Source: a virus. Taken from it: a DNA stretch of 40,719 nt. Under the pieces are notes generated by a model, which saw only the letters and a program-made list of their open reading frames with translations, was not told the DNA's origin and did not search any database. The number at the start of each line of letters is the position of its first letter. The first letter of the stretch is position 1. Shown here in pieces: positions 1 through 40,719 of this stretch. The position numbers and the translations under genes are program-made. The stretch covers positions 1 through 40,719 of the IMG/VR virus record IMGVR_UViG_3300030419_002795; one strand, given 5' to 3'.

Positions 1-68
1 ATATATTTTGGTAAATCATCAGGATTATCAGGTACAGGATTAGGTGTATATCTTGGTGCTTGTGCCAT
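1..68 (-). CDS. N-terminal fragment of small virion-region protein (second copy of the 40444-40701 gene)
   Basis: This fragment starts at ATG 66-68 and runs off the left edge. It encodes M-A-Q-A-P-R-Y-T-P-N-P-V-P-D-N-P onward, the same 22 residues that begin the complete 85-residue gene at 40444-40701. Over 66 bases there are only two differences from that copy and both are silent. It follows the 274-residue gene by 4 bases, with AAAGG as the likely ribosome site. The overlap shows that the right end of the window joins this end. Function unknown. Confidence 0.85.
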   Translation of the reverse strand, partial: MAQAPRYTPNPVPDNPDDLPKY

Positions 69-72
69 ATTA

Positions 73-897
73 TTAAACCTTTAAATTTTTTTTAAATCTT
101 CTTTTAAATCGTTCTGCTGCTGAACCCTTTTCACCATATATTGTTACTTTATCCCTGTAACCTTTAGGTAAAATTTTAGCTGCTGATTTTATATCCCAAT
201 CTCCTAGCGAACCTACCCTTACATTCGTTTCATCAAGTTCTTTATATCTATTTGGATTTAATATTTTTTTACCTGTTTTATCTCTAATTTTTCTTTTATA
301 TAGTGCAGGTATTATCTCCTTGTGTCCTCTTGGTCCGAACCAAATTTTGACAGGTATTTCTTTGTTACCTTGTAATAAATTTGCCACTTGTGTTCTATGT
401 CTACCCTCATGTGCAGATACTTTTAAAGCTCCACCTTTATCTATGTTTACCCATAATTCTGGCATATCTATTTCTTTTCCTTTTTTCATTTTATTGATTA
501 AGCGTTTTGCTTTGCTTCTTCTATATAATTTTGGAACAAGACTCATAAATTGTTTAGGTGTCATATATCTTACAAAACTAGCAATCTCCCCTGCACTTAA
601 TGTTCCTGACGATTTGACAAATTTTGGTGTTATTGCTTTGCTCCCACCTCTTTGTAAAGTATTTGTTATCCCACTACTAATAGCTTTTCCATATCCTTTT
701 GCTAATGCCTGTCCTACTTTTGTACCAACTAATCCAACAGGTATCATGGTTAAGCCAATGTTGGTTAGCCATGTTTTAGCCATTTCATTAGCTTGTTTCA
801 TTTCTTGTTTTGTAGGTGCGTTGGCTCTACTTTTTGCTCTACCTGCTGCTGTAGAACTTTGTTTCATTACATCTTGTAACCATTTTGGAGTTGCCAT
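73..897 (-). CDS. Strain-variable protein with ParB/Srx-like HEGRHR motif
   Basis: 274 residues, basic. Residues about 45-75 form a glycine/alanine-rich hydrophobic stretch (MIPVGLVGTKVGQALAKGYG) like a weak membrane or pore segment. Residues about 145-185 carry P-E-L-W-V-N then K-V-S-A-HEGRHR-T-Q-V-A, then I-P-V-K-I-W. This arrangement (beta strand, G/S-HEGRHR, strand) is typical of ParB/sulfiredoxin-fold domains in phage polyvalent proteins; fold assignment is inference. It begins in a TAATG overlap with the gp10-like gene. At the other window end the gp10-like gene is joined directly to the next gene and this gene is absent, so it is a presence/absence accessory gene. It may be a protein ejected with the DNA; its enzymatic role is unknown. 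Confidence 0.75.
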   Translation of the reverse strand: MATPKWLQDVMKQSSTAAGRAKSRANAPTKQEMKQANEMAKTWLTNIGLTMIPVGLVGTKVGQALAKGYGKAISSGITNTLQRGGSKAITPKFVKSSGTLSAGEIASFVRYMTPKQFMSLVPKLYRRSKAKRLINKMKKGKEIDMPELWVNIDKGGALKVSAHEGRHRTQVANLLQGNKEIPVKIWFGPRGHKEIIPALYKRKIRDKTGKKILNPNRYKELDETNVRVGSLGDWDIKSAAKILPKGYRDKVTIYGEKGSAAERFKRRFKKNLKV

Positions 898-2426
898 TAT
901 CTTTCTCCTAATACCTCATATTCTAAATCATAACCATTAAGTTCAAATGTAGTTGCAGATGTATGTTGAAACTTAATTGCTATATACTTTCCTGTGCTTC
1001 TAGCATCTACTTTATTCTGTGAGTTAGGATTAAAACTTTGTGATGCTGTATAAGTATAAGTAGCATTAGGCGACATAGCACTTCCTATAGATATATTGAC
1101 AGAACCTGTACCTGCTGCTCTAGGAGTTACTTTTCTTACAGATTTAACTGTATTTGTATTACCATCTAAAGTCAGTCCTTTTCTCTCTAAAGTCATAGTA
1201 AAGTTAGAACCTGCAAAATCAAATCCATTATCTGCTCTATAAAACTTAGTATCAGTTGTACCTGCCATTAATATAGAAGTTTCTGCTGGATTATAATTTC
1301 TTTCCCCCCATGATGTTGTAGTGCTGTAAGCAATCCAACTTTGTGATTGTCCTGACCAAACAGTTGAAGATGCACCAGGATTAACAATACCTGTTGCAAT
1401 ATGTAATATGTTAGGTAAATCTCTAAAACTAAATGCTTTGGTTTTATAATTCCAAATCAATGCTTTATCACAATAAGTTGAACCTACAGATGGATAACAT
1501 ACCCAAATTTCTGTTTTTTGTTTATTATGTAATGTAAATATATTCTTATAATTAGTGCTATCTAAATCATCAAATAAAGTTCTTTTAACTGTTCCTGTAG
1601 CTATTGATTCTTTAGATACTCCATTATGTACTATTAAATCACCTTCTGTTACAACAAAATGCCTACTATCAAATTCAACTACACAATTCCTTGATAAAAC
1701 CCCTGTATCGTTAAATAGTTTTTGAAAACTAAATACAAGATTTCCACCAATATAATTCATTAACCATGTACTTTTTTCTTTATAAATGATAAATGATTTA
1801 GCCAATGATGTGCCATCTATTATTATATCGCCCTCATCCCCTATCTCATTTTGTCCTGCATCATTGGTAGCTGCTGCTGCCCATGTTGTAGGTAGGCTTG
1901 TTGTGGCATCAGACCATTTTACTCGGTTTGGATAATTTGTTCCTGATTCTGTAGTGTTTAATGCTATTGCATAATTACCATAAGGTCTTATAGATTTACA
2001 AAGTGGAGCATTAGCTAAATCAATAAATTTGCTTGTGCCTGTACTCCATATTTGAGGTTCATCTACTCCATTAGTAATTAATGGTAATCCATTAAATATT
2101 GAACCAACCCAGTTGCCTGTTCCTGTTAAACTGGTTGCGTAGTCGCCACCTGATGTTCTTGTTACATCTGTATTAGTTGAGCCATCAGTTCTATATATTT
2201 TTGCAGAACCTGCATAAAACCAATAGTTAGTAGCACCTGTTAAATTAATTAAAAAATAGGGAGCAACACTAGGAGCTGTAAATACATTATCATGTCCTAA
2301 AATCTTTTTTGCAGCATTATCCTCAAACCTAACATTTTCTGTATGTGAAAAAATTTCATTAGGTAATGCAGTAGGATTTATATCCTTTGCCATTCCTTGT
2401 GGTGGACCTGATTGAAATACTGGCAT
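897..2426 (-). CDS. P22 gp10-like tail / DNA-stabilisation protein
   Basis: 509 residues from ATG 2424-2426. This start is preferred over an in-frame GTG at 2444 because it forms a TAATG overlap with the upstream stop and has AAGGA 7 bases away. The N-terminus (MPVFQSGPPQGMAKD, then PNEIFSHTENVRFED) and the repeated beta-strand pattern with aromatic/Gly turns are typical of the phage P22 gp10 family, which closes the portal vertex and forms the tail hub. It lies in the tail cluster between the collar protein and the internal proteins, as expected. It ends V-L-G-E-R with TAA; a second copy of this C-terminus, ending TAG, is at the right window edge. Confidence 0.85.
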   Translation of the reverse strand: MPVFQSGPPQGMAKDINPTALPNEIFSHTENVRFEDNAAKKILGHDNVFTAPSVAPYFLINLTGATNYWFYAGSAKIYRTDGSTNTDVTRTSGGDYATSLTGTGNWVGSIFNGLPLITNGVDEPQIWSTGTSKFIDLANAPLCKSIRPYGNYAIALNTTESGTNYPNRVKWSDATTSLPTTWAAAATNDAGQNEIGDEGDIIIDGTSLAKSFIIYKEKSTWLMNYIGGNLVFSFQKLFNDTGVLSRNCVVEFDSRHFVVTEGDLIVHNGVSKESIATGTVKRTLFDDLDSTNYKNIFTLHNKQKTEIWVCYPSVGSTYCDKALIWNYKTKAFSFRDLPNILHIATGIVNPGASSTVWSGQSQSWIAYSTTTSWGERNYNPAETSILMAGTTDTKFYRADNGFDFAGSNFTMTLERKGLTLDGNTNTVKSVRKVTPRAAGTGSVNISIGSAMSPNATYTYTASQSFNPNSQNKVDARSTGKYIAIKFQHTSATTFELNGYDLEYEVLGER

Positions 2427-11190: not shown

Positions 11191-11311
11191 TTTTTTTCTC
11201 TAAAATTTTTTTTGCTATAGCTACTGATTGTCTTTGTGAGTAACCTTCTCTTTTTAATATTTTAATTTTATTAGAAAAAATCCTATTATATTCTGCTTTA
11301 CTTTTAATCAT
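11174..11311 (-). CDS. Small helical protein after the portal
   Basis: 45 residues: M-I-K-S-K-A-E-Y-N-R-I-F then K-R-E-G-Y-S-Q-R-Q-S-V-A-I-A-K-K-I. The E-G-Y-S-x-x-Q-S/A-V-A-I-A pattern is a helix-turn-helix-like module common in phage mini-proteins. The start lies inside the portal's last codons (8-base overlap) and the end overlaps the next gene. Tight coupling and sensible composition support it as real. Confidence 0.6.
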   Translation of the reverse strand: MIKSKAEYNRIFSNKIKILKREGYSQRQSVAIAKKILEKKNERPK

Positions 11312-13334
11312 TTCCAATCTTTACAGGTCGTTCTTGTGTTACCTCTAAAGCTAATTCTGCTTTAGTTAACTCAAGTTGTTGTTTTTTAATCTCTAGTTCT
11401 TGTTGCTTTATTGCAAGTTCCACAGTCGCCATATCCTTTTTTAATTTAAGTTCAGCAACAGATATTTGTGCATCTGTTTGTATTTTCTGTAACTCTACTT
11501 GTGATTTTTGTTGTTGTATTTTTTCATCAATAGATGGTTCTTTAGGTGGTTGTGGTGGCATTGTTTCAGGGTTAGAAACAAAAACATCAGGATTTTTATA
11601 TCCAGTTTGTGTTATAAATTCACTTACAGCATTGTAAATATTTTGCTGAGTAACGATTGTTCCCATTCCACCATTTTCAATTAATTTTTGTATTATACTC
11701 ATTACACTAGCCATGCTTGTTAGTTTCGTTTGTTGGCTACCACTACCTATACCAACATTTATAATACAATTTAATTTTTCTTTCCAGCGAGATACATCAA
11801 TAGGAACAAATTTATTATTCAGATAAACAATTTTTTGCCTATCTTCATATCTTTGTACTAATTGATAAATACATCTAAATATATCTTTAACACCTGTTTC
11901 TGCAAAAATACGAGCAATTAATTCTACTCTTTGCATAGCAGATTCTGTTGCAGCACTTATAGCACCTGATGTTACATGAGATGTTAGGACATCAGGATTT
12001 AATCCTTGTGTCATTTTAGATACACCACTTCTTTCTTCCTTTACGCCATCTAAATATTGAACCATTTGAAATGCGTAAGGTTGTATCTGTGGAGTAGGCA
12101 ATGCTTGTACTGCATTAGGACTTCTCATTCTAACAATACCACCAGGTCTTGATGTTAATAAATCATCTAACTCAACCTGTCCTGCTAAAACTGCATATCT
12201 AGCATTATTAGTTAAATACATATTATCAAGAAGATTCCTCATAATAGTAGATTTAATTAGCTGTATATCTTTAACAGTATCAGCAATACTCATTCCATAA
12301 AATTTATGTGGAATAGGTAAAGGACAAATAGTAGAAAATGGAACATAATCTATTTCTATATTTTCTAATATTACATTTCCACCTTTTGTAATTTTACGAA
12401 GTTCTGCTATACCATCATTATCATAGTCAATTCTTGTATAACACTCCTCAATCCAAACTTGTTTAGATGCACCAGTTCCTTCGTCAGGTGGTATCGAGTC
12501 ATCATCATAACTAAATCTTGCTAATCTTTCTTGATTCCATTCTGCTTGTGTTTGTGAATAAGTAGGTAAATCATTTACTACTTTAGGGTCATAGCCTTCT
12601 AAAATTAAATCACTTACTGTTTTTTTTACTCTATGACAAATAAAAGGTGCAGTTTCTACATCAACTGCCCTTCTTGATATTAAAAATTCTTCAGGTGGAA
12701 CTGATACAACTTTGACTTGCCCATATTTTTTAGTACATTTTGCTTTTACATCATGTTTAGATAATGCTGGAGATACTTCCATTCCTTCTTCATTTAAAAC
12801 TGCTTCCTTTATTACTTCTTCAGTATGTTCTAATACTTCTAATTCATCATTTGCTAATATAGCTTGAAATTCAATTTCAGTTAAATTTGTGTAGGTTTCT
12901 GTCTTTATTTCTTCTTTTTCTTCCCAATAATGCTTTACGATACCTGTTTTACTGATTAAAGCATCTTTAAAGGCATCATATAGGACTTTAAACCCATTAT
13001 TTTGCTTATTAAAAACATAATTTACATAATCTGTTGCCTGTTTTGCCATATCTATATCTTCAGGTCCTTGTGGCTCAAATTCAGCAACATTGTTATGTGT
13101 TGTAAAAATACGCATAAGGCTTGGCATAATATACTCAATAGTATCTCTTACATCTGTGGTTACTATTTCAGACCTGCCATCAATCTCATTTCCAAATTTT
13201 TCACCAAGATAATACTTCATAGAGTCCTCTCTTTGACTAGAGAGTTCACTATTCATGTGTCCTGTAGCTTGTTCTATTTCAGATGATAAGTGTGAAGCGA
13301 GTTCACTATTGGTCATTTTTTTCTTTTTTGCCAC
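11304..13334 (-). CDS. Portal protein (P22 / SU10 type)
   Basis: 676 residues. Features seen are the N-terminal D-G-R-S-E-I-V-T-T-D-V-R-D-T-I-E-Y-I-M-P-S segment, H-Y-W-E, P-P-E-E-F-L-I-S-R-R, D-Y-D-N-D-G-I-A-E-L-R, the M-S-I-A-D-T-V-K-D-I-Q region, then S-G-V-S-K-M-T-Q-G-L-N-P, all typical of large podovirus portals. The final 100 residues are a long Lys/Glu/Gln coiled coil (P-P-K-E-P-S-I-D-E-K-I, then Q-Q-E-L-E-I-K-K-Q-Q-L-E), probably the barrel/crown. It forms the dodecameric DNA gate and docks terminase and adaptor. It follows TerL by one small gene. Confidence 0.9.
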   Translation of the reverse strand: MAKKKKMTNSELASHLSSEIEQATGHMNSELSSQREDSMKYYLGEKFGNEIDGRSEIVTTDVRDTIEYIMPSLMRIFTTHNNVAEFEPQGPEDIDMAKQATDYVNYVFNKQNNGFKVLYDAFKDALISKTGIVKHYWEEKEEIKTETYTNLTEIEFQAILANDELEVLEHTEEVIKEAVLNEEGMEVSPALSKHDVKAKCTKKYGQVKVVSVPPEEFLISRRAVDVETAPFICHRVKKTVSDLILEGYDPKVVNDLPTYSQTQAEWNQERLARFSYDDDSIPPDEGTGASKQVWIEECYTRIDYDNDGIAELRKITKGGNVILENIEIDYVPFSTICPLPIPHKFYGMSIADTVKDIQLIKSTIMRNLLDNMYLTNNARYAVLAGQVELDDLLTSRPGGIVRMRSPNAVQALPTPQIQPYAFQMVQYLDGVKEERSGVSKMTQGLNPDVLTSHVTSGAISAATESAMQRVELIARIFAETGVKDIFRCIYQLVQRYEDRQKIVYLNNKFVPIDVSRWKEKLNCIINVGIGSGSQQTKLTSMASVMSIIQKLIENGGMGTIVTQQNIYNAVSEFITQTGYKNPDVFVSNPETMPPQPPKEPSIDEKIQQQKSQVELQKIQTDAQISVAELKLKKDMATVELAIKQQELEIKKQQLELTKAELALEVTQERPVKIGND

Positions 13335-13350
13335 TATTTATAAATCCCAA

Positions 13351-13539
13351 TTAGAAGAAGTCTGAAAATGAAACCTTATCTTTCATTTTTTCGATTTCGT
13401 TAGCATACTTTTCTGTATAAGGTGTTCTCTCATGAGCTGCGTCCATACTTGCCTTTAAAGCTTTTAAATTTTTATTTATAGTATGCTGTGTACCAGCTTT
13501 GCTTCCATTTTCTTTTAATTTTTCTCTAAATATATTCAT
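13351..13539 (-). CDS. Small protein between TerL and portal
   Basis: 62 residues, basic and helical (M-N-I-F-R-E-K-L-K-E-N-G-S-K-A-G-T, then K-A-L-K-A-S-M-D-A-A-H-E-R). The start ATG 13537-13539 has AGGAG in the 11-base gap after TerL. It ends K-V-S-F-S-D-F-F, 16 bases before the portal start. No family recognised; likely a packaging or portal accessory by position. Confidence 0.6.
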   Translation of the reverse strand: MNIFREKLKENGSKAGTQHTINKNLKALKASMDAAHERTPYTEKYANEIEKMKDKVSFSDFF

Positions 13540-13550
13540 TTTTTTATCTC

Positions 13551-14972
13551 CTAAACTATTGCGACATCAGGACCTAGTCTACCTTTAGCGTTCCATTTTG
13601 ATGTTTCTGTTGTACTGTGTCTTAGACTCATAACTGCATATCGTGTTGCAGACATGATATCATCTTTTATTTTAACTACTTTACCATCTTTTCTATGATA
13701 GAGTCTAAATTCTTGAAACCAATCATACATGGTGTTAAAAACCTTAAACTTTCCCTGCTCCATACGAGTAAGCATTTCCATCAATCCTGCTTCTACAGAA
13801 TTACCACCTTTTGTTTCTCCTAACGCAGGTGGATTCTCAAAATGAAAAGGTAACATATTGACACGAGCAGTCCTATACTGTTCTGCCAAAGTTATTCCAC
13901 TTCCTTTATCATGTTGGTAGCCATCATGTGGAAATGCTATAGGAATATAATGACTTCCCTCTCGTTCATTAATGTGTGTTGCGTGATAATCAGGTGTTTG
14001 TTTAGACATTTTATAACAATCGTAAATATACACAATATCATCATCTCTATCCCATGCCACCCATACTACTGCTGTAGGGTGGTCATATCCAAAATCAAGA
14101 CCTGCAATCCTAGAGAAATGTGGGGGAATTGTGAAAGGTTCACAGGTCAAACTATCTTCGGCTATAGGAAATACCAATCCTGAACCAATCATGGGTATAC
14201 CTTTAGACCTTAATTCTCTTTCATGTGGTGGTAAAGCAGCAAGGATTTGCTCTTTCATATCCTCGGTTAAGTGTTCTGCATCTTCCCAACCTGCTGTTAT
14301 CAATGCCTGTTTAGGTCGTAAATCAGTTGTAAAGTTCTGCACCACCTCAGTCATACCTGATTCAGGGGTAAAGGTCAAATAGACCATTCCTCGCCTGTCT
14401 AGTGTACGAGTTATACATTGTGAGTAGATTTCTTGTGATGGTTCTTCATCTAACCATACCAAATCTATACTCTCCCCCATAAATTTTTCAGCACCCATCT
14501 CGTATGCTTTGAAGGCACACCTAGACCAACCACCTGTTTTATGCTTCACCAATACTGATGAATGTGCGTTGGGTACTCCAGGTTTCCTAGTAGCTTCACC
14601 AATCAAGTGTTTAGGTATACTGCCTTTTCCTTTATCTCGTGGATTATCAGGTTGCCCAAATAATTCTCTTTGACAGATATCCCTCGTGGTTTCATTACTC
14701 GCACCACATACCCATGCCCTTATGGGTTTCGTAAATCTGTGTCCTTTCCACCATTTAGGGTATTCGCCAGTAAGATGAATCGACATTTCCATAGCTCCAA
14801 CATAAGATTTCCCTACCCTGTTTGCTGCCATCAATAGTCTTTGATTAGCGTCTGCACCTGATTCGTGAAAAATTTGCTGAAATTTATAAGGTTTATAGTA
14901 ATTGAGCCGATTTTCTTGTTGCCTTTTATCTAAAGTAGTAAGGATTTCCTTAATTCTTTCATTATTATTCAT
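13551..14972 (-). CDS. terL: Terminase large subunit
   Basis: 473 residues from ATG 14970-14972. The packaging ATPase shows Walker A A-A-N-R-V-G-K-S-Y, Walker B I-D-L-V-W-L-D-E-E-P and coupling motif T-F-T-P-E-S. The headful-type nuclease has G-L-D-F-G-Y-D-H-P and a late K-D-D-I-M-S-A-T-R-Y-A acid. The N-terminal Y-K-P-Y-K-F-Q-Q-I-F-H-E-S-G-A matches the family. The start is uncertain: no good ribosome site precedes this ATG, and an in-frame TTG at 15024-15026 would add 18 residues. It heads the late gene block, preceded by 540 bases without a supported gene. Confidence 0.92.
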   Translation of the reverse strand: MNNNERIKEILTTLDKRQQENRLNYYKPYKFQQIFHESGADANQRLLMAANRVGKSYVGAMEMSIHLTGEYPKWWKGHRFTKPIRAWVCGASNETTRDICQRELFGQPDNPRDKGKGSIPKHLIGEATRKPGVPNAHSSVLVKHKTGGWSRCAFKAYEMGAEKFMGESIDLVWLDEEPSQEIYSQCITRTLDRRGMVYLTFTPESGMTEVVQNFTTDLRPKQALITAGWEDAEHLTEDMKEQILAALPPHERELRSKGIPMIGSGLVFPIAEDSLTCEPFTIPPHFSRIAGLDFGYDHPTAVVWVAWDRDDDIVYIYDCYKMSKQTPDYHATHINEREGSHYIPIAFPHDGYQHDKGSGITLAEQYRTARVNMLPFHFENPPALGETKGGNSVEAGLMEMLTRMEQGKFKVFNTMYDWFQEFRLYHRKDGKVVKIKDDIMSATRYAVMSLRHSTTETSKWNAKGRLGPDVAIV

Positions 14973-15485
14973 ACTGTAGGCATAGTAATCCACTTCTAAG
15001 TATATGTTTTTTAAAAAAATAATCAACCCTTAACTGCCAATTTAAGCTCCTTATTTACCCTTTTTTAGCCTTTTTCTTAATTTTAGCAAGATAACATAAG
15101 GATTTACTAATAGACTTTATTTTTCCCACCATAGCGTGGATTAGAGGTCGCTGAATTTGAATTTGGAATATGGGGGTTGAACGCTTCGCTGGTGAAATGA
15201 AAATGGAATTAATTTTTTTTCATTGGTAAAAGTTTTTTATAATTAATTTTATTTTATTTTAATAATTAATTTTTTATTATGCAAAATTAATTTAAAAAGA
15301 AAGTATGTAGACATGATAGTTTATTTTTAAATGAATCATGTAACAAGTCATTTAAATTAATGTTAACAATTTACAATTAAATCAATGCTTCTAGTTATAT
15401 TCTTTCTAATAAGAACAAGGCATTTATAATCTTTGGCGATTTTATTTTTTATTATAGGACTATAATTAAATTGTAATTGTATAAA

Positions 15486-40447: not shown

Positions 40448-40701
40448 AACTTAACCCAACTACCTGCTGCGTTTCTAAAATAAATTCCTTCACCACTTCC
40501 AGGATTCCAATTAGAGCCATCAGCATAAACTATATCACCTTGTTTAATTCTATCAGGTGCTGCATTTTTAACCTCTATGTATTGGGTAGGGTTTTCTTGT
40601 AATGCTCCTTGTAATTTTAATAATTCTTCAAAGATATATTTTGGTAAATCATCAGGATTATCAGGTACAGGGTTTGGTGTATATCTTGGTGCTTGTGCCA
40701 C
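40444..40701 (-). CDS. Small virion-region protein, GTG start
   Basis: 85 residues. Pro-rich start (Q-A-P-R-Y-T-P-N-P-V-P-D-N-P-D-D-L-P), helix E-E-L-L-K-L-Q-G-A-L, then strands E-V-K-N-A-A-P-D-R-I-K-Q-G-D-I-V-Y-A-D-G-S-N-W-N-P and G-I-Y-F-R-N. The G-S-N-W-N-P-G-S-G pattern fits phage attachment proteins. Here the start is GTG overlapping the TAG of the gp10-like gene; the copy at 1-68 uses ATG after the 274-residue gene. Confidence 0.75.
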   Translation of the reverse strand: MAQAPRYTPNPVPDNPDDLPKYIFEELLKLQGALQENPTQYIEVKNAAPDRIKQGDIVYADGSNWNPGSGEGIYFRNAAGSWVKL

Positions 40702-40719
40702 TATCTTTCTCCCAATACC
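40634..40719. repeat. Terminal near-repeat with the left end
   Basis: 40634-40699 matches 1-66 with two silent differences, and 40701-40719 matches 897-915 with two silent differences. Left-end bases from about 67 to 896 (the 274-residue gene and 4 flanking bases) are absent between these two matches on the right. Confidence 0.9.
40701..40719 (-). CDS. C-terminal fragment of the gp10-like gene
   Basis: Codes V-L-G-E-R-TAG, the same end as the gp10-like gene at 897-2426 (V-L-G-E-R-TAA). Runs off the right edge. It shows that in this version the gp10-like gene is directly next to the 85-residue gene. Confidence 0.85.

Follow-up and report, generated by a model that had tools for sequence, protein, structure and literature searches.

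The two ends of a virus contig raise the question of why one gene junction should be written twice in a single genome, once with an additional gene in it and once without. The contig comprises all 40,719 bases (32% G+C) of an IMG/VR virus record, and this complete stretch is termed here the window. At its left end the minus strand encodes a 515-residue virion protein (2444-897; phrog_3287, "gp10-like", an orthologue of tf_57 and LUZ24 gp56), then a 274-residue protein (897-73), and then the first 68 bases (68-1) of an 85-residue gene with an ATG start, truncated at the contig end. At the right end, again read on the minus strand, the final codons of the 515-residue gene (VLGER and the stop; 40719-40701) are joined directly to the 85-residue gene (40701-40444), which here starts with GTG and stands in the position of tf_56 and LUZ24 gp55. 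In an ungapped alignment the right end (40634-40719, minus strand) was identical at 82 of 86 positions to a composite of positions 915-898 and 68-1, that is, to the left end from which the 274-residue gene has been taken out, and no other copy of these 86 bases was found in the window by BLAST beyond chance 11-13-mers. None of the four differences changes a residue: they are TTA/TTG in the 515-residue gene (gp10), TAA/TAG in its stop, a change that also converts the following start codon from ATG into GTG, and CCT/CCA and AAT/AAC in the 85-residue gene. The stop and the start are intact at both joins. Since the differences are only silent and both reading frames are kept, neither chance nor random misjoining explains the match. 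Thus the initial annotation, according to which the ends overlap and differ by one gene, was borne out, and its coordinates, gene lengths and four silent changes proved correct on re-alignment.

The window carries portal (phrog_1216), scaffold (phrog_3927), major head (phrog_1328) and gp10-like (phrog_3287) genes that place it among LUZ24-like phages; its portal is 36-37% identical to those of LUZ24 and tf, and among cultured phages Pelagibacter phage HTVC106P has the most similar portal (45%). The late genes tf_57, tf_56, tf_55, and tf_54 of Pseudomonas phage tf (PMC3517423) follow one another directly and correspond to the 515-, 85-, 142- and 304-residue genes of the window, which stand in the same order once the contig ends are joined, so that the contig evidently represents one turn of the genome of a marine LUZ24/tf-like phage, opened in the middle of the late operon and closing at the junction in question. 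Unlike the left end of the window, tf and phage Lyrsu01, in which the homologues of the 515- and 85-residue genes adjoin directly, have nothing between these two genes, and the proteins are 36-39% identical to those of the window. The proposal that the genome is "circular or permuted" holds as far as the contig closes on itself, but the permutation was not upheld: the terminal repeats of the relative tf are fixed and 186 bp long (PMC3517423), so assembly would be expected to close the contig, and neither circular nor permuted DNA is implied.

With the 85-, 274-, and 515-residue proteins and a junction pattern as queries, 127 distinct contigs were gathered, from collections that may lack records very near the window. 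The state of the junction was counted by a script with borders placed by tblastn, reading to the next stop. Both borders were readable in 112 contigs, among which 85 show the direct join (gap of -1 or 0) and 27 are filled with an insert of 172-790 bases. At the neighbouring junctions inserts were present in 2 of 106 contigs (between the 238-residue tail gene and the 515-residue gene), 0 of 108 (85/142), and 0 of 98 (142/304). As a side observation, the two exceptions (L025 and L027) have a 526-base insert, and the other 104 are at a gap of -19 or -18. Many of the contigs are near copies, and clustering of the 515-residue proteins at 97% identity resulted in 45 clusters, of which 28 contain only the empty state, 15 only the filled state, and 2 both. 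The 515/85 junction is an exchangeable gene slot, and the recognition of it as a general insertion site for many different genes goes beyond what had been noticed from the window itself.

These counts bear on the explanation that the double junction is an assembly artefact only, made by the joining of unrelated contigs or by a chimeric read, with no real presence and absence of the gene. The data do come from metagenome assembly, and most related IMG/VR records in the set are fragments; however, the right end keeps the frame of gp10 and its own stop with silent differences only, and the direct join is the commonest arrangement among relatives, which makes this explanation very unlikely. Because the direct join is found in most relatives and in the cultured phages tf and Lyrsu01, the right end is a real allele.

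The tree of the 515-residue protein (109 rows) implies no fewer than 14 switches in slot state, and in one pair of contigs, one filled (L053) and one empty (L060), the flanking DNA is 93-95% identical. The nearest relative of the window on this tree (L005, 83%) carries an insert unrelated to that of the window, and the next nearest (L011) carries one of a third family. According to these data the suggestion that the 274-residue gene is present in some members only is well founded; most relatives have an empty slot, and filled and empty states switch between close relatives. Population variation and the assembly of two strains had been offered as alternatives, but these options are not mutually exclusive: both alleles probably co-occur in one population or sample, and, if the population holds both, the contig probably joins two strains. 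It would have been assembled from such a population and broken where the filled (left end) and empty (right end) alleles meet. Neither exact allele was found in other IMG/VR records of the searched set. Contig ends falling at the slot might have pointed to polymorphism, but the bins upstream of it were equally enriched.

The inserts belong to at least six families, between which no sequence relation was found. Family A, designated by its HEGRHR motif, includes the EGRHR proteins of the window, L001, L004, and L086 and has a conserved N-terminal part of about 90 residues. Family B is carried by the groups of L005, L006, L069, and L078; family C (L011, L167, and L168) has a YPTIR-type domain at its end; family D (the L017 group, L064, and L113) is short and basic; family E includes L053, L055, and L147, and family F includes L058. 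In the members L066, L078, L097, and L069 of family B the N- and C-termini are common (GGLLD...LF[DQ]) and the middle differs, as if recombined within the gene. Proteins related to the C-terminal part of family C also occur in other viral contigs (L180-L184). By tblastn no match to family B, family C or the 274-residue protein was found in annotated phages, and at the sensitivity used the 274-residue family had no relatives in bacterial and archaeal genomes. A scan with the family B alignment gave no stretch conserved enough, and a scan with a single family B protein recovered only the slot itself.

The EGRHR gene also has a second place. In L002 and L003 it lies between terminase and portal, which share 87% and 76% identity, respectively, with their counterparts in the window. 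In the window the same junction (13335-13550), between the terminase (13551-15026) and the portal (11304-13334), holds on the minus strand a 62-residue gene (13351-13539) without relatives among the 74 loci compared. The 74 terminase/portal junctions surveyed have 0-908 bases between the borders, a space that is either without genes or occupied by one or several small genes of diverse kinds, and in many of them a conserved 44-55-residue gene precedes the portal. Taken together, the window and these 74 terminase loci (L187-L266) show the second slot to be more variable than the first. An N-terminal M-x-x-P-L-[LIV] sequence followed by a basic AAKK-type stretch is common to proteins of both slots, being carried, for example, by L198, L199, L205, L242, and L244 in the second and by L064 and L113 in the first.

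It could be argued that the cargo is ancestral and was repeatedly lost rather than exchanged, since the identity of the family A cargo roughly tracks the divergence of the backbone and the changes between empty and filled states cannot be polarised on the tree. Nevertheless, different families are found in near relatives (A in the window, B in L005, and C in L011) and the same family in distant clades, tf and Lyrsu01, both Pseudomonas phages, have an empty slot, and the EGRHR gene is found in two slots; all this requires gain or exchange, so that loss alone is highly improbable.

Nearly every insert is one gene that extends from the stop of the upstream gene to the start of the next one. The last codons of the 515-residue gene, AGGAGAAAGATA (898-909, minus strand), double as a Shine-Dalgarno sequence for any following gene. 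Thus a cargo gene would enter from start to stop and be translated from a ribosome-binding site built into the end of its upstream neighbour, and it would have to supply its own Shine-Dalgarno sequence for the next gene; the exchange itself probably proceeds by recombination in the conserved flanks. The initial annotation had placed the join at TGGCA, shared by both starts. This sharing is correct, but TGGCA is the ordinary context of a start codon (ATG GCA), and the stretch shared at the join varies from 0 to 11 bases in relatives; TGGCA therefore does not mark a specific site of joining. As a recombination site it was rejected, like any longer direct repeat, because neither is constant among relatives. 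It is also very unlikely that the inserted gene is itself a mobile element, such as a homing endonuclease or a transposon, landing at one site. A single site, precise boundaries and recurrence in distant backbones would fit such an element, but no tested cargo matches an endonuclease, transposase or integrase, the site takes at least six unrelated genes with no constant target duplication, and the EGRHR gene is present at two sites.

What the 274-residue protein of the window does can be approached through its C-terminal part. No Pfam match was obtained for this protein, and its full-length fold (pLDDT 41.8) was dropped from the fold search. The C-terminal part was modelled on the relative in L086 with four sequences and with modest quality (pLDDT 62.6, pTM 0.52). 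In the Foldseek comparison of this model with the PDB, sulfiredoxins and ParB proteins head the list (best E 0.07, probability up to 0.92; no match below E 0.05), and in the viral structure list several ParB/sulfiredoxin domains of phage proteins were found, with a best E of 2.6e-5. The relative in L002 matched a ParB phrog at E 0.0044, over 21 residues only. Ribosomal protein L9 appeared in a PDB profile search with family A and was discarded as giving chance matches only. According to this modest model, the cargo protein may end in a ParB/sulfiredoxin-like domain. Phage domains of ParB type adjoin virion genes, related domains are nucleases or nucleotidases, and the ParB-domain protein DdrB of P1 is packaged (PMC5512222). 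The window protein resembles the DdrB-like domains of phage polyvalent proteins (PMC5512222) in the predicted domain type, in being coded beside virion genes, and in its EGRHR motif, which has arginines as in the superfamily; it differs in having 274 residues and one recognisable domain without a metallopeptidase part. If the model is right, the cargo of the window would act via a nucleotide-binding or nuclease domain of this type.

Near its C-terminus the same protein carries the sequence AAERFKRR (residues 260-267; 97-120, minus strand), which is shared with unrelated slot proteins: SAAERFKRRF in the window has counterparts in TAAQRLKDKF (L064), SAAQRFKDRY (L227), and SAAQRFKRNR (L231, near the N-terminus). 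The motif is enriched in slot proteins of different families: its strict form A[QE]RFK was found in 7 of 36 slot clusters versus 0 of 143 clusters formed by the remaining genes of these loci (Fisher test, 8e-6), a value to be read with the fact that the motif was spotted by eye before testing and that distant homology between clusters is possible. In shuffles of 33 representatives 0.01 occurrences were expected versus 6 observed. A DNA pattern of the motif gave only 2 matches in 16 records, namely the gene of the window and the terminase/portal gene of the L212 record, and the backwards control gave 0 matches in the same 16. The motif mostly lies at most about 26 residues from the C-terminus and is N-terminal in L210, L212, and L231; it is absent in slot families B, C, E, and F and was not found in positions 10000-36945 of Pelagibacter phage HTVC106P.

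Packaged phage proteins with ParB domains (PMC5512222) and the internal proteins of T-even phages (PMC3012670 and PMC12373910) make an accessory, perhaps packaged protein the best reading of the cargo. The T-even internal proteins are diverse, have only a targeting sequence in common, are injected, and block restriction enzymes (PMC3012670 and PMC12373910). By analogy, the slot cargo is possibly an exchangeable accessory protein that is packaged and injected in the same manner. Like the slot proteins, IpI-III and their relatives are diverse small proteins which vary between close relatives, lie at distinct loci, and share mainly a short signal; in contrast, the T4 signal is N-terminal, whereas the motif described here is C- or N-terminal, and no sequence relation to the Ip proteins was noticed. 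A polymorphic contig combined with an exchangeable slot, whose cargo is made up of late accessory proteins that are, less certainly, loaded into the virion and injected, has as a whole about an even chance of being correct. Under this joint reading some of the late-made proteins might be loaded via the short basic A(A)QRFK tag, and the injected cargo could counter host defences or aid early infection. Its strongest form, in which two late-operon slots hold modular virion-injected effectors of many families and A(A)QRFK at either end loads unrelated proteins as the counterpart of the T4 capsid-targeting signal, is tentative and rather unlikely.

With the same slot and the same contig, the cargo may instead act unpackaged in the cell late in infection, in lysis timing, superinfection exclusion or assembly help, and the motif may be a helix that binds nucleic acid or membrane. 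This is a real possibility, though short of an even chance. Many slot proteins are small and basic, and several have a hydrophobic N-terminus (M-x-x-P-L-[LIV]...AAKK), as small intracellular effectors often do; on the other hand, the two slots are surrounded by head and tail genes, where the known packaged ParB-domain proteins sit (PMC5512222), and a single short motif recurring on unrelated proteins is consistent with a common sorting step.

Two other known systems resemble the slot. The anti-phage diversity hotspots of P2 and P4 (PMC9122126) are likewise small high-turnover loci between two conserved phage genes, but they are loci of 1-5 kb in temperate phages and satellites, whereas here usually one small gene is inserted from start to stop in a virion operon of marine LUZ24-like phages, at two places. 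The metaviromic islands of marine phages (PMC3909814) are also genome parts that differ between co-occurring strains; they were found by read recruitment and contain mainly the same genes with very divergent sequence, many of them for host recognition, whereas the slot is a precise junction at which one gene is substituted by another that is unrelated to it. Thus an odd contig end led to a site with exact borders at which whole genes are exchanged between closely related ocean phages. The small slot proteins are good candidates for effectors that are injected or counter host defences, few of which are known from such a setting, and, if the motif loads proteins into particles, such effectors would be findable by sequence. 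Presence/absence alleles can also cause a phage genome that is complete to be recorded as a linear fragment. A minor irregularity concerns the family A record of L004 (G005), where the 515-residue gene (392-1956) is read in three pieces in different frames, the frameshifts being probably sequencing or assembly errors.
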